Assembly: GCF_016097405.1 (NCBI RefSeq)
Contig: NZ_JAEHGD010000001.1
Location: 828,345 to 892,344, forward strand
Length of the DNA: 64,000 nt
Direction: 5' to 3'
From: a methane-oxidizing endosymbiont of Gigantopelta aegis
Lineage (GTDB): Bacteria; Pseudomonadota; Gammaproteobacteria; Methylococcales; Methylomonadaceae
The notes under the pieces were generated by a model, which was given only the letters and a program-made list of their open reading frames with translations, was not told the DNA's origin and did not search any database. Of this stretch, positions 9,944 through 21,267 are shown one piece after another; position 1 is the stretch's first letter, and each line of letters starts with the position of its first letter. The position numbers and the translations under genes were made by a program.

Positions 9944-10883
9944 AATTTTCCTTATCCGGATTAAGATAAACATGGCCAATGGGCGTTAAATTTCGTGTTT
10001 GTCGTCCATTCCATCGCTCTGGATTGTCTCTTTTTGCTTGCTCGATGACTCGTTTTCTTTTTTCGAGTACGGCGCTGTCTAAGCCGTTATGGCGTTGGTT
10101 GGGTGTTACAAACTTGAGCGCACTGTGTTGATGTTCATTGTTGAACTAACAAACGAAAGCTTCAACCCAGTTCCTGGCTTCGCTTAATGTTTTAAAAGGG
10201 TTTTCTGGAAAGGTATGATGATATTTGACTGTTTTAAATAACGATTCTGAATAAGGATTATCATTACTGACACGAGGTCTGCTGAACGACGTGGCAATGT
10301 CTAAATCGACCAATTTGGCCCTTAATGTTGCGCCTTTCATCGGACTGCCGTTGTCAGAATGTATCACCAATTGCTTTTTGTCGATGTTTTCCCGGCGAGC
10401 GATATCTTCGATCAAATCAGCAGCGTGTGCGCTTGATTCGGCATCATGAACTTGCCAGCCTACGATTTTCCGACTATAGATGTCCATCACCATGTAGAGG
10501 TAAAAATACTGCCCTTTGACGGGGCTTAATAAATACGTAATATCCCACGAGTAGATTTGATTGGCCTGTGTGGCTTTGAGTGACTGCGGTTTATTATGCT
10601 GACCTGCGGCTCCTTTAGCTCTGTGCTTAAGCTGGTTGTGGGCTTTCATGACACGATAAAAGGTTGATTCTGATGCGAGATAGCAGCCCAAATCCAATAA
10701 CCTCGGAACGATTTGATGCGGCGTTAAAGCGCTGTATTCCGGTTTATTAATCACGGTGATGATTTCTTGCTTGATGGCCTCGGATAATTGATTGTGCACA
10801 GGCGCTGTATTGTGCAGTCGTAGGTCTTCTGAGAGTCCTTCTCCCCGGTTCCAACGCTGATAGGTTCGAGCTGATATACCCAC
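9915..10883 (-). pseudogene. IS3-family orfB (DDE transposase) with in-frame amber stop
   Basis: Integrase-core (rve) transposase. SWDITYLLSPVKGQYFYLY contains the first Asp, VIHSDNGSPMKG the second, and NDNPYSESLFKTVKYH the Glu of the DDE triad. The frame is interrupted by TAG at 10146-10148, after NWVEAFVC. The same frame then continues with NNEHQHSALKFVTPNQRHNG and runs to TAA at 9915-9917, which is the normal IS3 C-terminus. In relatives the interrupted position is a Trp or Tyr-rich WYN, so this is a nonsense change after the catalytic residues. In full-length relatives orfB is translated by -1 frameshifting from orfA; here a GGGGGAAAAGG stretch at the end of orfA could serve. Confidence 0.82.
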
Positions 10884-10969
10884 CAGTTCACAGGCTAATT
10901 TCTGCCGCGCTCCATTGTCAACGGCTTCATCAATGAGTGCGCTGTAGTGTTGGCGATCTGAGTAGGCGA

Positions 10970-11473
10970 TTAATCGGCCGCCTTTTCCCCCAGATCGCTT
11001 GGCACTTTTTTTGATAACACCAGTAAAGCCGCTGTTTCTGATAACGCTTTCTCTTTGCGGTTTAGCTCCTTATGCAAACGCTTGTTTTCTTGTTTGAGTT
11101 TTGTTTGCGCCTGTTTATATACGGATTCTGTTGATTTAGATTCTGACAAAAATTCCGCTTTCCAGGTATTTAGATGATGTAAGTAGATGCCTTGTTCACG
11201 ACAATAGGCGCTAGCCTGATCATCGGTGAGATGATGACAATGAACAATGGCTTCAAAACGTTCTACTGTATTCCAATCTTGAGGGCTTTTTTCTTTTGAC
11301 ATGTTTGACTCTGTTTTTTCGAGTTGATTTTTCTTAGCTAACCGAATCCATTTTTGAAGTGTGGAGTAACCCACACCTAAAGTAACTGCAATTTGCTTTA
11401 GCGATTGTTCTGGTCTTCTGGATAATGCTTTTTCTACTGATTGTACTTTAAATTCTTGGCTAAATACGCTCAT
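10970..11473 (-). CDS. IS3-family orfA (helix-turn-helix subunit)
   Basis: 167 residues. An N-terminal HTH binds the IS ends (SLKQIAVTLGVGYSTLQKWI, about residues 24-43), with a second HTH-like block (residues ~65-110, DDQASAYCREQGIYLHHLNT) and a long coiled-coil (QTKLKQENKRLHKELNRKEK) near the C-terminus. The orfB frame is open upstream of its own ATG and overlaps the orfA end, consistent with a -1 frameshift fusion. ATG preceded by CAGGAGACAAAA, a good ribosome site. Confidence 0.85.
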   Translation of the reverse strand: MSVFSQEFKVQSVEKALSRRPEQSLKQIAVTLGVGYSTLQKWIRLAKKNQLEKTESNMSKEKSPQDWNTVERFEAIVHCHHLTDDQASAYCREQGIYLHHLNTWKAEFLSESKSTESVYKQAQTKLKQENKRLHKELNRKEKALSETAALLVLSKKVPSDLGEKAAD

Positions 11474-11525
11474 TTTTGTCTCCTGATTTAAAATTTCCTA
11501 GGCGACAGGTATGTTGACATAGGGG

Positions 11526-12284
11526 GTTAGTCCAGTTATTAAAGCTGTCTATCCAGATTCCTCATTACAGTACATTAAGTCGCCGCCAGCAAACTCTGGA
11601 GGTTCGGCTGCCTCGTTCAAGCAGTCGAACGCCAAGACACTTAGTCGTCGATTCGACCGGCTTAAAAGTCTACGGTGAAGGCGAGTGGAAAGTTCGCAAA
11701 CATGGTGCCAGCAAGCGCAGAACCTGGCGTAAACTCCATATCATGGTTGATGCACAAACGCAGGAAGTCGTGGCAGTTGAGATGACGGCTAATTTTGTTG
11801 GTGATTCCGAAGTCTTGCCGGATTTATTAGAGCAGCTGGATGAACACGACCAAGTTGCCAGTGTGGCGGCGGATGGCGCTTATGATACGATCCAGTGTCA
11901 TCAGGCGATTCGTAACAAAGGCGCCGATGCATTGATACCGCCGCGGGAAGGGGCGGTGGAATGGCCGAGTGATGAAGATGGGAGAACTCATCCAAGAACA
12001 GCGATTGTTCAACGTTGCGCTGAAATCGGGAGAAAGGCATGGAAACAAGAAAGTGGTTATCATCAACGCAGCCTGGCTGAAACGGCTATGTTTCGCATCA
12101 AAACGCTCTTTAGTGGCCAATTAAAAAACCGGACCTTTGCGGCTCAGATGGTTGAGGCGTATCTCCGCGTCGGCGCAATGAATAAAATGACAGGCCTGGG
12201 TATGCCTGAAAGTTATTCTGTTTCATGAATAAAGACTGGAATTTAAGAAAAGAGTACGCTGTGGATTATTTATGCAACAAAGCC
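11526..12284 (+). mobile_element. Remnant of an IS903-like (IS5 family) element, 5' part missing
   Basis: From about 11526 to 12284 the sequence is the same as the complete element at 32244-33289, including the terminal ATTTATGCAACAAAGCC. The left end stops abruptly 6 bp after the IS3 element. The missing part would contain the first ~82 transposase codons and the left terminal repeat. The identity of the two copies shows that the family moved recently. Confidence 0.88.
11527..12228 (+). pseudogene. IS903-like transposase, C-terminal 233 residues
   Basis: Open from TTA at 11527 and in the same frame as residues 83-315 of the intact transposase at 32300-33247; the compared residues are identical. 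It includes the first and second catalytic Asp regions (LVVDSTGLKVYGEGEWKVRK; ASVAADGAYDT) and the C-terminal QRSLAETAMFRIKTLFSG with the Glu. No N-terminal DNA-binding part and no start, so it is dead unless complemented. Confidence 0.85.
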
Positions 12285-12668: not shown

Positions 12669-13541
12669 ATGAATTTTTTTAAACAAACAATACTCGTTTC
12701 TACACTGAGTGCCGCTGCAATGAGTGTGCAAGCAACACCCTTTTATATTGATTTAAATGGAACTGGTGTCGGTAATGGCTTTTCTGATGCAACAAATTGT
12801 CCTACCTGCACCTCAGATGCAAATGAATTAACTGTCAAATATCAATCTCATACAGCTATTGACTTGGCTTCAGCAGGAGGAGCAGGCCTGGATGTAGGGG
12901 ATACTTTAGTTACCACTGGAGGCTATTCAACTGATGGTTTTTCAGTGAATGCTGTCACAGGATTGAATCCATCGGGTGCAGACTACGGATTCAGTAATAC
13001 TTCATTTGCTGCCGCAAATGACTGGGGATTAACGTTTGAATTTAATTTGATTGGTCAGGTGGCTTCGGTTATTAACGGCACTGATGTAGGTGATGTCATC
13101 TATAATGGCGGTTATATTGATATGCTTTTTGTAAAGTTCGATGGGTTGGGGGGTATTGCTTCAACAGAGCAAGCTATGAGATTGAATGTTACTGGAAGCG
13201 ACTTGGATAATAATTCAAATTTATTGATATTTGGTACCTTGGATTTTTCACTTAATACAGGAAATACATACGATAGCCTATTTAATATTCAAGGTGGGGC
13301 CAGTTGTGCTGGTGACATCAGCTTTAGAGGGTTGGCAGAATGTGTGCCGGCATTAGATTTTACTTTTGTAATTGATCAGAATCTAAATCAACCGAGCGTC
13401 GAGAGTCTAGTTGGAAACATTTTAACTGTTGGTGGAACTCATGATGGAAGTTTAGCTTTTAATGTTCCTGAACCAAGCACTCTTGCTTTGTTGAGTTCTG
13501 TATTATTTGGTTTAGGGGGTGCATTGCGCCGGAAAGCATAA
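12669..13541 (+). CDS. PEP-CTERM sorted exported protein
   Basis: 290 residues. An N-terminal signal peptide, probably cleaved after SAAAMSVQA (residue ~22), leads into a Gly/Asn/Asp/Thr-rich, cysteine-poor beta-type body without a recognised catalytic motif. At the C-terminus VPEPSTLALL is the PEP motif, followed by a transmembrane stretch and a basic RRKA end: the exosortase recognition signal. The protein should be exported, processed by exosortase (EpsH/XrtA type; not in this window) and placed at the cell surface or in the exopolysaccharide matrix. TCGGAG precedes the ATG. Monocistronic, between a sigma-54 promoter and a strong terminator. Exact role unknown. Confidence 0.88.
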   Translation: MNFFKQTILVSTLSAAAMSVQATPFYIDLNGTGVGNGFSDATNCPTCTSDANELTVKYQSHTAIDLASAGGAGLDVGDTLVTTGGYSTDGFSVNAVTGLNPSGADYGFSNTSFAAANDWGLTFEFNLIGQVASVINGTDVGDVIYNGGYIDMLFVKFDGLGGIASTEQAMRLNVTGSDLDNNSNLLIFGTLDFSLNTGNTYDSLFNIQGGASCAGDISFRGLAECVPALDFTFVIDQNLNQPSVESLVGNILTVGGTHDGSLAFNVPEPSTLALLSSVLFGLGGALRRKA

Positions 13542-13694: not shown

Positions 13695-15344
13695 TCATTG
13701 CCATTCTTGTAAATGACCTATTGCTTCCGGCAGTTCCGAACCATAAGTATTAACTAATTCCTGTAAAATTTTTATCGCTGTTTCCCTGTTACCGTTCGCA
13801 TAATAGGCTTCAGTCAAATGTAACTGGATTTCTGGCATGCTAGACTTAGCTGCCACCTGTTTGAGAATTTTTAAAGCCTGTTGCTTATCGCCATATTTTA
13901 AAAGAATCACTCCATACGTATCGGCGATTGCCACAGAATCAGGTGCTTTTTCGTAGGCTTTTTTTGCAAAACCCAGGGCTTTAGCATTGCCTTGTTGATA
14001 AAGTGACCAGGCCAGGTTGTTCAAGATTATTGGATTATCGGGCTGTTTTACGAGTAATGCCTGATAATATTGGCCTGCCTGGTCATATTTTTCAGCCTTT
14101 TGATAGGCATTCGCCAGCCGGAAACGAATCTGACCATTATCTGGATACTTATCCAATTCGCTCTTCAAGAACGAAATCGCTTCATCCGGTTTGTGTTGAA
14201 GTGAATAAATACTAACGATACGATCCAGTATTTTAATGGCCGGGCTAATCTGATAGGCACGCTGATAATTTTTGAGTGCCTGTTGATATTTTTTCTGCGC
14301 TACATAAACATTGCCTAACAAAATGTTGCCAACGCTGATGTCTGGAGATTGCTCTTTAACCTGTTGGGCAATGAACAGTGCCTGGTCAAATTGCTTTTGT
14401 TTAAGCAAAAAAGCGGTTTTATATGCCAATATCAAATTTGGATTTTTTAGATTACTTGCGGCTTCATCAAGTAAAGCGGTGACCTCATCAGCCTTGTCAT
14501 TTTGTTGACTCAATAATCTGGCGAGTAAAAAGCGATGCTTCACATCCTTGGGGTGTTTGGCAATTATCTGGCGTAGCGTTTGCTCTGCTGCCGCTAAATG
14601 CTGATTGACTACTTGAGCTTCGGCTAAAAACGAAAGCGCGGCAAGGTTTTCTGGATAGCGTTTGACTAAATCGGTTGCCAGAGACTCTACTTTATCCGGT
14701 TTCTTCTCGGTCAAATACATTCTCCCTAACATTTGACCAATTTCGACCTGTGCATCCGTATTATCTTTCAGCGTTTGTTTGGCATTTAACAGCACTTTTT
14801 CAGCAGCCTTAAGCCCTTCTTGTTGCAGTGCAATGTCCGCTAAAACCTGATAAATAATCAATGCCTTCGGTTGGATTTTTTGTGCTTGTTGTATATATCT
14901 TTTTGCCTGGTCATATTGTTTGCTATCTAATTTTAGTTTAGCTAACCCAACTAAAGCCTGGGCATTATCCGACTTCACACTCAGGGCTTTTTGATAGTAC
15001 TTTTCCGCTTCATCAGGCTGTTTATCTAAAATAGCGAGTAATGCTTTCAAATTATAATAAATTGCCTGTTTGGGATCATCTTGAATCAAATTGGCCAATT
15101 TTTGTTTGGCTTCATCCCATTTATTTTGCTTAATTAATTGCAGAATCTGCCGATAATTTTCACCTAACTGCTGCCTCGCCTTTTCTTGCTCAAACTCTTG
15201 CGGCTGTTGGAGTAACGACGGCATATTAAACAGCTCGTCCTGCTGTTCTTTATCAGCCTCATTATAAAGTGCAGCATAAGCTGAATAACTGCCGCAAAGG
15301 ATAGTGAGAAGCAGCATCAATCTTTGTTTTTTAATATTCATCAT
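13695..15344 (-). CDS. Exported TPR-repeat protein (PrsT-like)
   Basis: 549 residues: signal peptide (LLLTILCGSYSAYA, cleavage about residue 25), a short charged segment, then tetratricopeptide repeats from ~residue 60 to the end; the 34-residue periodicity is plain in ALVGLAKLKLDSKQYDQAKR, GNVYVAQKKYQQALKNYQRA and LNNLAWSLYQQGN. The C-terminal pattern (NNLAW, APDSVAIADTYG, LHLTEAYYANG) resembles the PEP-CTERM-associated TPR protein PrsT, though this one is shorter than typical PrsT. It faces a PEP-CTERM gene tail to tail. Likely a periplasmic scaffold in exopolysaccharide secretion, but this rests on similarity of pattern only. Confidence 0.72.
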   Translation of the reverse strand: MMNIKKQRLMLLLTILCGSYSAYAALYNEADKEQQDELFNMPSLLQQPQEFEQEKARQQLGENYRQILQLIKQNKWDEAKQKLANLIQDDPKQAIYYNLKALLAILDKQPDEAEKYYQKALSVKSDNAQALVGLAKLKLDSKQYDQAKRYIQQAQKIQPKALIIYQVLADIALQQEGLKAAEKVLLNAKQTLKDNTDAQVEIGQMLGRMYLTEKKPDKVESLATDLVKRYPENLAALSFLAEAQVVNQHLAAAEQTLRQIIAKHPKDVKHRFLLARLLSQQNDKADEVTALLDEAASNLKNPNLILAYKTAFLLKQKQFDQALFIAQQVKEQSPDISVGNILLGNVYVAQKKYQQALKNYQRAYQISPAIKILDRIVSIYSLQHKPDEAISFLKSELDKYPDNGQIRFRLANAYQKAEKYDQAGQYYQALLVKQPDNPIILNNLAWSLYQQGNAKALGFAKKAYEKAPDSVAIADTYGVILLKYGDKQQALKILKQVAAKSSMPEIQLHLTEAYYANGNRETAIKILQELVNTYGSELPEAIGHLQEWQ

Positions 15345-15519: not shown

Positions 15520-17097
15520 TTACAACCTGCCAAAGTCCACCATCTCATCAGTGTCAGAAAAATTTACAATGCGTTCATGTCGAATTAAATGGCGGGGGGT
15601 GAGGCTATCTGCGGCAAAAGCAACCAAGCGCAGTATTTTTTTCTGATTGGCGGTATTGAGGCTTAAAATATTCAGATTAAAATACACCCGGCCATCGTAT
15701 TTTGATGGCGTACCAGCAGAAGGGCCGCAGACTATGATTGCAATATTATTTTGCAAGATTGCGCTATGTGACACAGGAGAGCTACCTTGCAAACAAGCCT
15801 CTATCGAATTTTTTTCGACAAAGGCTTGTAATAATTCATGGTTTTTAATGGGGTTGGCAGTCGGCAGCGTATCTACCCGATATACTGTTTGATAAAAATC
15901 TCGGCTTTCCGGGCTGATGGATTGGGTATCAAACCACACGGGCGCATGGTGCATCAGGATAATAAAACGATAATCCTCACTATTTTCCTGACGGCTTATT
16001 TCATGTTCAATCGTTTCAATCTGTTCCTGTCCGATCGCACCGTCTGGCAAATTGCCATGCATCACGCTGTTCAGGCTGATTATCGCCAACTTTTGTTGCT
16101 CAAACCAGCAAACCTTGGCGGTTTGAAAGCTAATTGCCGTGCGGTACCCTTCGTTGATATTGCCATCGTTACGCACATCGCGTCGGCCAAACACAAATAG
16201 CGGCGTTTCAATCCCCAGTGTTTCCAAAAAACGCCAAAATTGTCGTACTTCGTCCACATGCTCTTCGCCAGGACTAGCCAGTAAATTTCCGCTAATAACG
16301 GGAACAATACGGCTGTTTTCGCCAAGTTCATCAATCAATATCCGAATGCAGTGTTTTAACTGCGACAGCCGAAAAGCCGTTGCGCGAGAGCCAATGGCCA
16401 AGTCACTTAACTGCAAAATATGCAGTGTTTTTTCCTGTTGTTCATACGCTTCAGAAAACGCCTGTTGATACTGAACCGATAACACGGCCAGATTCAGACC
16501 CTGATCGGCATACAGCTTATTAAAGACCCATTGCAGACGCGCCTCAATGTCAATTTCCATATATCCTTGCGAATGAAGCGGTAAAAAAACCACTTCCGCC
16601 CCCGGTATCAAAATAAACAGCCCGGGCCATTCCAGCCGTCGGGCGAGCAATCCATGCAAGGCTGGATGAATATCCATTACGGCCATATCCTGTTGATAGG
16701 GTTTGTCTAGTTGCAAAATTGCACCTGTCATGTGCTCCTGGCTTTTGCCATAAAAACCAACCAGCTCCGGGTCACACAGTATTTTGTCGATGCAGCGATC
16801 ACGTCCCGAGGGAATTGTAATGAGCAGCCAAGGCTTGGTTTCAAAATAATGGCGTAGGCGTTGATAGTAAGGTGCGATTAGCGTATGACCGTCTTGTTGT
16901 TCCAGTTGTTGACTGAGTGTTTGCAATGGTTGCAGTCTGGATTCAGGTGCATGCAGCATAGCTTCCATCACTGTCAGTTTTTTTAACAGTAGCTGCAGCC
17001 GCATCCTGTCGGCTTTTCCTTGCCCAAGCCCGGCAATACTCACGCTGGGATCAAGTATTTTGAGCAAATGGTTAGTCAAACCAATATCAAAACTCAT
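15520..17097 (-). CDS. Metallophosphoesterase-like protein with degenerate active site
   Basis: 525 residues, no signal peptide or membrane helix. The N-terminal ~225 residues are unrecognised. From ~230 the order of strands and motifs follows calcineurin-type phosphoesterases, but the metal ligands are mostly gone: LQLSDLAIG where D-x-H is expected (Asp kept, His replaced by Ala), ISGNLLA for GDxxD, FGRRD for GNHD, LMHHAPVW (His kept), and QGSSPVSH for GHxH. It is therefore probably a non-catalytic, perhaps nucleotide- or protein-binding domain. The start overlaps the RND stop by 4 bp (ATGA), so the two are translated together, last gene of a three-gene operon. Confidence 0.72.
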   Translation of the reverse strand: MSFDIGLTNHLLKILDPSVSIAGLGQGKADRMRLQLLLKKLTVMEAMLHAPESRLQPLQTLSQQLEQQDGHTLIAPYYQRLRHYFETKPWLLITIPSGRDRCIDKILCDPELVGFYGKSQEHMTGAILQLDKPYQQDMAVMDIHPALHGLLARRLEWPGLFILIPGAEVVFLPLHSQGYMEIDIEARLQWVFNKLYADQGLNLAVLSVQYQQAFSEAYEQQEKTLHILQLSDLAIGSRATAFRLSQLKHCIRILIDELGENSRIVPVISGNLLASPGEEHVDEVRQFWRFLETLGIETPLFVFGRRDVRNDGNINEGYRTAISFQTAKVCWFEQQKLAIISLNSVMHGNLPDGAIGQEQIETIEHEISRQENSEDYRFIILMHHAPVWFDTQSISPESRDFYQTVYRVDTLPTANPIKNHELLQAFVEKNSIEACLQGSSPVSHSAILQNNIAIIVCGPSAGTPSKYDGRVYFNLNILSLNTANQKKILRLVAFAADSLTPRHLIRHERIVNFSDTDEMVDFGRL

Positions 17098-20000
17098 GCT
17101 TTTTCTTCCCTTTCCTTAATCAAATCCCAAACAACCGGCGCCACCCATAAGGTCAATAGCGTCGCCACGCCTAACCCGCAGACAAACGTCGACGCCATTG
17201 CGCCCCAAACGATGGAATAACTGGGAATCCCCAAGGCCATCGGCAACAGTCCTAAAAAGGTAGTCAAGGTAGTCAGAATAATCGGCCTTAAACGAATTTG
17301 AATAGCCTGCTCAATTGCTTCGCGTCGGCTCAAGCCAGTCCGATAGCCTTTATTCATAAATTCGATCAACACCAGCGCATCATTGACGACAACACCAATC
17401 ACACCAATGATGGCGATGAAGCTGTTGATGGTAAACAAAGATTGTGCCAAAAACTTGCCAAAGACGATGCCAATAATGGCAAACAATACCGCAAACAAAA
17501 TAATGGCCGGCTGCATATAGGACTGAAACTGTGTTGCCAGAATGATATAAATCATCATCATGGCAATAAGAAATGCAAACAGCAGTGATTGATAGGATTT
17601 TTGCGTGCTTTCATATTCGCCACTGAACAAGATCGTCACCCCTGGGTATTGATCGCGAATCGTGGCATAGTATTGACTGACCGCATTGACAACGGAATTG
17701 GCGGAAACCGGCGCACCTGTTTTTAAATCGGATTTAATGCTGACGGCTCGTTGACCGTGATAACGATGTAATTCCCCCGGCTCTTGTTCCTGCCTGAGTT
17801 CGACCAAATCACCCAGTAAAATGGGTCGGGTGGCACTTTCTACAACGGGCACCAGCAATGCCTGCTCTGGGGTGTAAAGACGCATTTTATCGTAATACAG
17901 CTTTAAATCAATCTCCTCGTCTCTGGCCCGATATTGACCAATATAACGCCCGTCCAGCACACTGCCTGCCAATCTTGCCACGTCCTGACTGTTCAAGTTA
18001 TATTCTTTCACCCGGTCTTGCTGGACATCAAAATGATAAAGGCGCTTTGGCAATCCTTTGTTATTTTCCATCTCGATCAGATAAGGCGCAATATCAGGCT
18101 GTGATTGTAAAAAAGCCAAAATCTTGTCTGCCAGCGCATTAACCTTCTCGCTGTCATCGCCCAGTATTTTTATATTAACGGGTTTACCGGCTGGTGGCTG
18201 TTCTTTAAGAGGGTGAACATGTAATACAAAACCTTCTTTTTCAAACTGGTTTTTCAGTTTTTCCCTGACTTCTTCCAGATATTGAATTGGGTCATTGATT
18301 GATCTTTTGTCCTTAGATGGCAAGGTCACAATAACCAGGCCCAAGTTGTTGCCATTGATGAATTCATAATCATCATTCATTATGGTTCCAGCCATACCGA
18401 CTGCTGACTCAATCTTATCCGGCCCTTCCTTGAGAATGGCTGTTGATATTGCTCTGACCTGCTTGTCCATTTCTGCCAATGATGCGTTAGGCTCCCCGCG
18501 GATATCAATAAAGTACACACCATAATCTGCTGGAAAAAACTGGGTTTTAACCAGCGGCAAAATGCCGGTAATAGAAACGAACATGATGCCGATTGACAAG
18601 ACAAACAAAACCAGAATTGACACAATCGTCGTTTTACGAAAAGTCAGTGTCCAGTTCAGTACCCGCTGAGTTAGCCGCCGTAAAAAGGCGACGATAAAAT
18701 TATCTTCTTCCAGCCGGTGCGACAACATTTTGGCCTTTTGTGGGCCGAAATCCAGATAATGCACTGGCAGTATAAAAAAACATTCAAACAGCGAGGCAAC
18801 CAGCGCAAAACAGACAATCGCCGGAATCTGCACAAAAAACTGACCGGTCGGCCCTGACATCAGAAACAGGGGTAAAAATGCCGCAATCGTCGTCAAAGTC
18901 GAGGATAAAACCGGCAAAGCCACTTCCCCGACCCCTTCGACAATGGCTTCGTAGGTTTGGTAACCTTTTTGGATATATCGATAGATATTTTCTGTCACGA
19001 CAATGGCATCATCGACAATAATGCCCGACACCAGGACAAAGGTGAATAAAGTCAATTCATTAAAGCTGTAATGCAATACATGCATTAACAACATGGTAAA
19101 TAAAAATGAAAATGGGATACCAATACTGATCAGACCGGCATTGCGAAATCCCATAAAATACCAGGAAATAAATGCCACCAGAAACATGCCGACAACAAAA
19201 TTCCAGCCCAGCGTGGACAGCCCATCGTTAATCCGAATAGAAGAGTCCTGCGTTAAAATAACATCAAGCTGTTCGGCATCAATGAGAGGTTTAAAAGTTT
19301 CCAGTACTTGTAAAACATCTTTTTTAATGGCCAGCGCACTGCCTTCGGGCGTTTTTATCACATGCAAAGCAATGGCATTTTTACCATTGATCGTGGAAAT
19401 CACACTGGGATTGCGATAATCAAACCCCATTTGGCTGGTCAAATCTGCCAGACGAATAAAACTACCATCACCATCACGGCGAATAACAGCATTCAACAAG
19501 GTATCCCGATCCTGGAATTTTTCATCGACTTTGATCAAAAATTCTTCTTTGCCAGACTCTAATTTGCCAGCCGTGACGGAAATATTGATTTGTTGCAGTG
19601 CCGTCGCTACTTCGTTAAAGCTGATACCGTAAAATCGTAAGCGTTCAGGGTTCAGATAAACATGGAACTCCCGCTCCAGTTTCCCCAACACCAATACTTT
19701 CTTGACGCCATTGATTTTTTTCAAGGAGGCTTTGATTTGATCCGCCATCAATGCCAGCGCCCGGTTCTCATGATTGCCGCCTAAATTGATCACGATTACC
19801 GGAACCATAACTCCCATGGTGACTTCATCTATCTGCGGTTGCAGGGCTTGGTCGGGCAAATCCTTTTTGGCATTAAGAATATTAAAACGAATTTCGTCAT
19901 ATAACGCTTTGTAATCGCTGTCATCGACGAATTTGACGGTGATATAGGAATGCTCGGCCTGGGAAGATGAAGAAATCCATTCGATATTTTCAATATCTTC

Positions 20001-20216
20001 GATGGCTTCTTCCAGTTTTCGCGTCACTAGGGTTTCGACATCCACCGGCGAAGCACCGGGGTAATCGGTGACGATTTTGACTTTTGCCATGTTAATGTCG
20101 GGATAACGCTCGGTGGGTAGCGCAAACATGGCAAAACAGCCGGCAATCATCAATAAAATGAACAGCAGGTTAAAAAAGACCTTTTGCTCCAGTGAAAAAC
20201 GGCCTAAGGCATTCAT
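17094..20216 (-). CDS. RND-family efflux/export permease
   Basis: 1040 residues with the RND layout: helix 1 near the N-terminus, large periplasmic loop, helices 2-6 (SGIIVDDAIVVTENIYR carries the paired Asp of the proton relay in helix 4), helix 7, second periplasmic loop, helices 8-12 (VIGVVVNDALVLIEFMNKGY is the counterpart). Closest in pattern to AcrB/MexB-like hydrophobe exporters of the CusA/AcrB/AcrD class without obvious metal ligands. It sits directly after its membrane fusion partner (1 bp gap) and overlaps the degenerate phosphoesterase gene. No outer-membrane channel gene is in the operon. Substrate unknown. Confidence 0.9.
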   Translation of the reverse strand: MNALGRFSLEQKVFFNLLFILLMIAGCFAMFALPTERYPDINMAKVKIVTDYPGASPVDVETLVTRKLEEAIEDIENIEWISSSSQAEHSYITVKFVDDSDYKALYDEIRFNILNAKKDLPDQALQPQIDEVTMGVMVPVIVINLGGNHENRALALMADQIKASLKKINGVKKVLVLGKLEREFHVYLNPERLRFYGISFNEVATALQQINISVTAGKLESGKEEFLIKVDEKFQDRDTLLNAVIRRDGDGSFIRLADLTSQMGFDYRNPSVISTINGKNAIALHVIKTPEGSALAIKKDVLQVLETFKPLIDAEQLDVILTQDSSIRINDGLSTLGWNFVVGMFLVAFISWYFMGFRNAGLISIGIPFSFLFTMLLMHVLHYSFNELTLFTFVLVSGIIVDDAIVVTENIYRYIQKGYQTYEAIVEGVGEVALPVLSSTLTTIAAFLPLFLMSGPTGQFFVQIPAIVCFALVASLFECFFILPVHYLDFGPQKAKMLSHRLEEDNFIVAFLRRLTQRVLNWTLTFRKTTIVSILVLFVLSIGIMFVSITGILPLVKTQFFPADYGVYFIDIRGEPNASLAEMDKQVRAISTAILKEGPDKIESAVGMAGTIMNDDYEFINGNNLGLVIVTLPSKDKRSINDPIQYLEEVREKLKNQFEKEGFVLHVHPLKEQPPAGKPVNIKILGDDSEKVNALADKILAFLQSQPDIAPYLIEMENNKGLPKRLYHFDVQQDRVKEYNLNSQDVARLAGSVLDGRYIGQYRARDEEIDLKLYYDKMRLYTPEQALLVPVVESATRPILLGDLVELRQEQEPGELHRYHGQRAVSIKSDLKTGAPVSANSVVNAVSQYYATIRDQYPGVTILFSGEYESTQKSYQSLLFAFLIAMMMIYIILATQFQSYMQPAIILFAVLFAIIGIVFGKFLAQSLFTINSFIAIIGVIGVVVNDALVLIEFMNKGYRTGLSRREAIEQAIQIRLRPIILTTLTTFLGLLPMALGIPSYSIVWGAMASTFVCGLGVATLLTLWVAPVVWDLIKEREEKA

Positions 20217-20217
20217 A

Positions 20218-21207
20218 TTATTTTTTCAAGCGCTTGAATTGATCGCCAACGCGTATTTCCGTTGAACGGATTTGTACTCGCTCATTGTTCAGGCTGCTCA
20301 ATAACTTCACTCGAATGCGTTTGCCGTCTTTGCGTTGCAGCCAGTATTCTTCAAAGCGTTCTTCAATAGCCTGTTTAGGCACAGTAAAGACCTGGCTTTT
20401 TTGGTCGGCTATATTTAACGTCAACTCGCAGCGCATACCGCCTTGAATCGTGGAAGGGAATTTTTCAATCCGTAAATCAACTCGAATCTTACGAGTTTTT
20501 TCGTCAAAGGCGGGCGAAATATGATCGATTTTTGCCGGTACCGTCACGCCAATATCCGGAAAAAACAGTTTTAATGATGCTGCCTCAGCTTTCAAAGCCT
20601 GTAGTTCGGGTAAAGACAAGGTTAATGGGATGCTTAATTGCTGATAATTACCCGCCTCGCCTAAAACCTGGCCTTCATTGACCCATTGACCGGGCTCTAT
20701 ATCACGTTTCGTCACTAACCATCCAGGCGGTGCCTTGATACAATGTCGTTTTTTTAATTCTTGCAGGCGCTTTTTACGTAAGCTCTCAATCGCGGCTAAA
20801 TGGCGCGCTTCGTTCAACTTACGCTCCAGATTATCCAGCACAGTGACGGCTGATGTTTGTTTTCTGACCAGTTTTTTATGCCGCTCAACTTCTTTCTTGA
20901 AGTATTTAATATCGCCATAATGCCGGGAAATCGCATTTTGCGCCGATTGAATATCAATCTTGACAAATACATCGTCCAAACAGGCAAACAATCCGGACTG
21001 GGGAATCGGCTCACCCACATCGGCATAAACAGTAACCACCTTGCCAGACACTTCGGAAATCAATGGCATTTTTGCCTGCGCCCGGGTGAAGCCCGTAATT
21101 TTTATGCCTCTGACGGCAGGTTCAGCTGTCACCCATTCCTGAGCTACCAACGACATGGAATAAAACACGCACAAGAACGCTACGCCGAAAAATCGTAAAA
21201 CAGTCAT
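20218..21207 (-). CDS. RND membrane fusion (HlyD-type) adaptor
   Basis: 329 residues from the ATG at 21207, chosen over a frame opening at 21264 because it begins with a signal peptide (MTVLRFFGVAFLCVFYSMSL) and has GAGG six bases upstream. Then a lipoyl half-motif (ISEVSGKVVTVYADVGEPI), an alpha-helical hairpin rich in Lys/Arg/Glu (about residues 75-150), the second lipoyl half (PPGWLVTKRDIEPGQWVNEG) and beta-barrel plus membrane-proximal domains. It bridges the inner-membrane RND pump and an outer-membrane channel encoded elsewhere. First gene of the operon. Confidence 0.87.
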   Translation of the reverse strand: MTVLRFFGVAFLCVFYSMSLVAQEWVTAEPAVRGIKITGFTRAQAKMPLISEVSGKVVTVYADVGEPIPQSGLFACLDDVFVKIDIQSAQNAISRHYGDIKYFKKEVERHKKLVRKQTSAVTVLDNLERKLNEARHLAAIESLRKKRLQELKKRHCIKAPPGWLVTKRDIEPGQWVNEGQVLGEAGNYQQLSIPLTLSLPELQALKAEAASLKLFFPDIGVTVPAKIDHISPAFDEKTRKIRVDLRIEKFPSTIQGGMRCELTLNIADQKSQVFTVPKQAIEERFEEYWLQRKDGKRIRVKLLSSLNNERVQIRSTEIRVGDQFKRLKK

Positions 21208-21267
21208 TATCGCCTCACCCAGAAAGCTGCAGAAAAAACACTCAAAATAAGCGGAGAAATCCATTCG

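Follow-up and report, generated by a model that had tools for sequence, protein, structure and literature searches.

A probable metallophosphoesterase-fold pseudoenzyme encoded behind one clade of MFP-RND exporters

Closest described systems

The class III cyclic nucleotide phosphodiesterases and their relatives, such as Rv0805, Lmo2642 and CpdA, are enzymes with a complete dimetal site of the metallophosphoesterase (MPE) type, whilst the eukaryotic proteins VPS29 and GAP50 use the MPE fold as a scaffold or anchor for other proteins. RND pumps are usually described as being made of three envelope parts, with cytosolic control being exerted at the level of transcription. Nothing relevant on a cytosolic MPE tied to an RND pump was found in the open-access literature.

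The locus considered here lies within the window, the whole stretch of 64,000 nucleotides that was analysed, and encodes a periplasmic adaptor (MFP), an RND permease and a protein that is termed protein X (Table 1). Protein X shares its fold with Rv0805, Lmo2642 and CpdA (Foldseek probability 1.00), which differ from it in having no linkage to an RND pump. The likeness to VPS29 and GAP50 is an analogy of role and not one of membership, these proteins being eukaryotic, 10-13% identical to protein X and not accompanied by a pump. The MFP-RND exporters of Methylococcales relatives that go without protein X have an orthologous MFP and RND permease, but these form a two-gene operon.

Table 1. Features of the protein X locus, in positions of the window
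Feature	Coordinates	Strand	Basis
Protein X, 525 aa: N-terminal domain and degenerate MPE domain	15520..17097	-	ORF, six homologues
N-terminal domain, residues 1-222; invariant IPS, LCD and WPG segments	16432..17097	-	conservation
MPE domain, residues 223-500	15598..16431	-	hhalign 99.5%, AF2 model, Foldseek
Motif I, LSDLAIG (canonical LSDLHxG; metal His lost)	16390..16410	-	alignment
Motif II, SGNL (canonical T/S-GD-L; bridging Asp replaced by Asn in 6/6)	16282..16293	-	alignment
Motif III, GRRDVRNDG (canonical GNHD; metal Asn and catalytic His lost in 6/6)	16162..16188	-	alignment
Motif IV, HHAP (HH retained in every full-length member)	15940..15951	-	alignment
Motif V, GSSPVSH (canonical GHxH; lost here; intact GHHH in G094 only)	15766..15786	-	alignment
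ATGA overlap of RND permease stop and protein X start, 4 bp	17094..17097	-	ORF coordinates
RND permease, 1040 aa (ACR_tran)	17094..20216	-	Pfam PF00873, E 5e-173
MFP, periplasmic adaptor of the pump, upstream of the RND permease	20218..21264	-	TIGR01730, 97.4 bits, above the cut-off of 94.9 bits

An intact MPE of the gammaproteobacterial genome G903 (L079, 7739-9772, minus strand) has a D-x-R-x-x-G-N segment, the HHHP context and an upstream WPG segment in common with protein X. It is unlike protein X in that all five of its motifs are intact (LSDLH, TGDL, PGNHD, LHHHP and HGHKH), that no RND pump adjoins it and that the likeness of the N-terminal regions amounts to 6.5 bits only. It has a long N-terminal region, comes from a distant gammaproteobacterium and is the leading candidate for the type of enzyme from which protein X descends.

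The anti-phage metallophosphatase DS-9A (NF053862) also has a long region ahead of its MPE domain, but the match is limited to the MPE domain itself, with the best protein X reaching 38 bits against a cut-off of 420 bits. DS-9A depends on its catalytic residues and has a HAD phosphatase as its partner (PMC13092281). The NF053862 model also matches ordinary MPEs, and the genes that follow that of protein X, some of which were scanned for HAD phosphatases, vary by genome (TPR, ThiF-like, exosortase acyltransferase, transporter). An anti-phage role by way of DS-9 was considered and rejected, the likeness being at domain level only, with no PADLOC match and with the catalytic residues absent.

Fold, metal site and N-terminal domain of protein X

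The window protein taken alone matches no Pfam family, matches two NCBIfam MPE models weakly and reaches no MPE family cut-off, so that it is the relatives that place it. Pfam Metallophos weakly matches two of five members (best 0.0026) and leaves the window protein unmatched, whilst the relatives give weak matches to the NCBIfam SbcD and CpdA models, and NF053862 (DS9_1) is the best NCBIfam match for all five, at up to 7.7e-10. The C-terminal part of the protein X profile scores 71 bits against the intact MPE of G903, and comparison of the family profile with a small alignment of intact MPEs by hhalign gives a probability of 99.5% over residues 221-500, with the motifs in register. The MPE domain makes up the C-terminal ~280 residues, and an AlphaFold2 model of it (pLDDT 72.4, pTM 0.78), the quality of which is too low for metal-binding calls from side chains, matches Lmo2642, Rv0805, UshA, purple acid phosphatase and VPS29 at a Foldseek probability of 1.00, with GAP50 also among the fold matches. 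A full-length AlphaFold model built from four sequences was poor (pLDDT 58), the domain-only model being the usable one. As the matches of the relatives, the profile-profile comparison and the predicted fold agree, assignment of protein X to the MPE superfamily by descent and fold is firm. A sequence-only reading of this DNA had called the protein phosphoesterase-like and had proposed structure prediction as a check; the prediction returned the MPE fold, and the label can be sharpened to that of a degenerate MPE, with the qualification that the window sequence alone falls below the MPE cut-offs.

The same reading had observed that the order of calcineurin-like motifs is kept whilst the metal ligands are lost, and LSDLA, SGNL, GRRD, HHAP and GSSPVSH are all present in that order. 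In the window protein motif I retains D232 but has A234 at the position of the His, motif II has N271 at that of the Asp, motif III has R305 and R306 at those of the Asn and His, and motif IV retains H383/H384. D307 of motif III is also conserved, although its position is not known to be that of a metal ligand in canonical MPEs. What had been seen in one gene is real and turns out to be a property of the whole family, with GD of motif II changed to GN and GNHD of motif III to GxxD in all six homologues, the Asn-His pair being replaced across members by the variable pairs RR, QK, SS, DN and VT. The D-x-H of motif I is complete in none of the six, which have D-x-A, D-x-N, G-x-H or D-x-F instead. 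Four of the five full-length copies have a degenerate motif V, to which the truncated G145 copy does not extend, and the HH of motif IV is the sole metal motif kept across all full-length copies. The G094 protein retains more of the site than the others, with D-x-N, GN, HHHP and GHHH.

As the ligands of motifs II and III are missing from all six members, their loss dates back to the root of the family as it is known; the losses beyond these two motifs differ from member to member. An active dimetal phosphoesterase was rejected as a description of protein X, the full ligand set of D-x-H, GD, GNH(D/E), H and GHxH not being present. With metal ligands lost across the family, protein X is probably catalytically inactive and, as judged from its sequence, would be a dead MPE.

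The N-terminal part, given as 225 residues in the sequence-only reading and as about residues 1-222 here, had been described as unrecognised, and searches by sequence of Pfam, NCBIfam and the PDB returned nothing for it. Its conservation equals that of the MPE domain, each having 16% invariant columns. The WPG segment has a weak profile match in G903, its 6.5 bits comparing with a maximum of 4.7 bits among 2000 shuffled sequences, and is spaced there much as in protein X from the MPE domain that follows it. Resemblance of this kind suggests, but does not establish, a common origin of the two N-terminal domains.

Linkage to the pump and joint inheritance

Protein X is found in six of the 237 genomes of the window's own GTDB family (that of the window, G043, G094, G055, G145 and G098), with the records of the loci including an uncultured Methylococcaceae bacterium, a Methylovulum MAG and a Methylococcaceae MAG. 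Searches of 369 genomes at class level, 399 at phylum level and a wider set of contigs yielded no further full-length copy, nor was there any tblastn match in plasmids and phages, and what matched outside the GTDB family were ordinary intact enzymes, by way of their MPE domain only. Phage MPE relatives from a scan of viral contigs were rejected as kin, being SbcD-like and having no match to the protein X profile. The sample is one of six genomes, two of which carry nearly identical copies. In these two, G055 and G145 (L009 and L011), the genes for protein X, the RND permease, the MFP and an adjoining glycosyltransferase are almost identical and yet the genomes are assigned to different genera, which would imply either recent transfer or a binning error.

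In all six genomes the gene for protein X lies directly behind an orthologous RND permease gene, itself preceded by the MFP gene. A search for the gene order MFP-RND-X in other genomes had been proposed from the window alone, and five others have it. The junction between permease and protein X is an ATGA overlap in the window and G043, a single-base TAATG overlap in G094, G055 and G145 and a 3-bp gap in G098. The 4-bp overlap that had been reported for the window is thus real, and the matched expression that was read from it is plausible given an overlap or a 3-bp gap in every case. The permease of the window falls below every NCBIfam pump cut-off. Hydropathy of protein X in a 19-residue window peaks at 1.4, with no TM-like segment, and so the protein is probably cytosolic. 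Across the genomes searched, those of the family, class, phylum and contig scan, every full-length protein X that was found adjoins the pump.

The permeases that are followed by protein X form one clade in a maximum-likelihood tree (support 100/100), with the tree of protein X having the same topology. Sister pumps, at 47-57% permease identity, consist of MFP and RND only, and orthologous pairs of this kind are found in G002, G006, G033, G068, G086, G606, G604 and G609. In G002 and in a ninth case, G615, the contig ends 51 bp and ~410 bp respectively after the permease stop, so that absence of protein X rests there on the whole-genome or family search, the family search covering G002. In genus mates lacking protein X (G016, G066 and G084) this MFP is likewise absent at E 1e-40. 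Constant linkage and co-inheritance therefore both hold for protein X as an accessory of an MFP-RND pump.

A further pointer comes from comparing the window with its closest relative, G043. Between the two, the genes for the permease and protein X have a dS of about 2.4-2.5 and are synonymously saturated, whilst the MFP and the neighbouring UPF0014, purM and DUF2066-like genes have a dS of 0.29-0.47, with dS climbing through the 5' part of the permease gene. With the permease and protein X saturated and the MFP and flanks low in dS, it appears that the two genes were replaced as one unit. This is most simply explained if one lineage acquired a diverged segment carrying both by homologous recombination, with one breakpoint near the start of the permease gene and the other beyond that of protein X. 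Joint replacement is the strongest hint that the permease and protein X act as a unit, although physical linkage alone would also move them together.

Protein X is under purifying selection; it is a functional protein, but one less tightly constrained than the permease. Between G055 and G145 its omega is 0.15, on few changes (11 synonymous and 6 non-synonymous), and between the window and G043 it is about 0.15 with dS saturated. The dN of protein X is 0.37 against 0.12 for the permease, making it some three times faster to evolve.

Genes of the PEP-CTERM/exosortase type recur around the pump. In the window a PEP-CTERM protein gene (12669-13541, plus strand) lies beyond protein X, which is followed by a TPR gene (13695-15344, minus strand) that is like PrsT of the XrtA system (273 bits, cut-off 312). 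An exosortase-associated acyltransferase adjoins protein X in G094 and G055, and a PEP-CTERM protein is found at the pump locus in G098. Pumps without protein X have similar neighbours, with PrsK adjoining in G068 and G086 and PrsR shown in G068; the MFP-RND pairs at L039:1606-5051 and L041:11229-14667 border the XrtA/PEP-CTERM regulator genes PrsK and PrsR. Such neighbours, seen in several genomes, hint that the pump may be linked to exopolysaccharide or PEP-CTERM export, which may bear on its substrate. About 3 kb beyond protein X, between response-regulator and PEP-CTERM genes of the window, are transposase-like ORFs (10146-12228), which, as judged by reading the sequence only, comprise a minus-strand orfA/orfB pair that is IS3-like and a plus-strand fragment that is IS5-like.

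Possible roles of protein X

On balance, and at slightly better than even confidence, protein X is an MPE-fold pseudoenzyme that serves as a cytosolic structural or regulatory partner of one MFP-RND clade. Judging from the gene layout, it and the permease would be read from one operon, after which protein X would fold as an N-terminal domain and an MPE domain devoid of the dimetal site. Most likely it would then dock on the permease from the cytosolic side and, once there, might assemble, stabilise or gate it, possibly using the MPE fold as a protein-binding platform by analogy with VPS29 or GAP50. A contact imprint was looked for in the cytosolic segments of the permease, and these show no excess conservation in pumps with protein X when compared with an equally diverse set of pumps without it; a suggestive signal in the TM6-TM7 cytosolic segment vanished against that set and was rejected. 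Against a partner role stand the rate of evolution of protein X, three times that of the permease, and the GHHH kept by one member (G094), and a shared operon and joint transfer fall short of proving a shared complex.

A distinctly less probable alternative is that protein X is a ligand sensor, in which the dead pocket would bind a nucleotide, a phosphoester or one metal ion by way of the retained HH and the D-x-R-x-x-G-N segment and signal to the pump or to the pathway of its substrate. A regulatory or ligand-sensing role had also been suggested in the sequence-only reading, and it stays at the level of a proposal. The HH (383-384), GN (270-271) and DVRxDG are invariant among full-length members, and the equal conservation of the N-terminal domain would also suit such a role. 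However, intact G903 already carries the D-x-R-x-x-G-N segment (GNHDQRWRGN), so that DVRxDG is inherited and is no new binding motif evolved for sensing, and the metal-Asn and catalytic-His positions vary freely in the family.

It is rather unlikely that protein X is a passenger, carried along in the operon with the pump whilst functioning elsewhere or decaying. Its faster evolution would fit, and the linkage could stem from one insertion inherited in one clade, but each of the five full-length copies has an intact ORF of 509-525 aa, omega is about 0.15 in both close and distant pairs and the protein has been met with only beside the pump. Slightly less likely again is an enzyme with a one-metal or re-wired site, using for instance the motif II Asn and the retained histidines, as G094 keeps much of its site and an omega of 0.15 indicates constraint, but the bridging Asp and the motif III Asn/His are gone from all six members, motif I has been lost in different ways and motif V is degenerate in most full-length copies.

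Returning to protein X as a non-catalytic partner of the pump, a bolder form of the proposal is that one RND clade has in it an additional, obligate subunit, by which gating or assembly would be controlled from the cytosol in response to a phosphorylated ligand. No precedent for this was found, and it is put forward as a doubtful possibility. If the partnership is true, protein X would be a rare cytosolic partner of an RND permease, co-evolving with it, and would offer a small and concrete test system. In bacteria it would also exemplify the non-catalytic reuse of the MPE fold that is known from eukaryotic VPS29.
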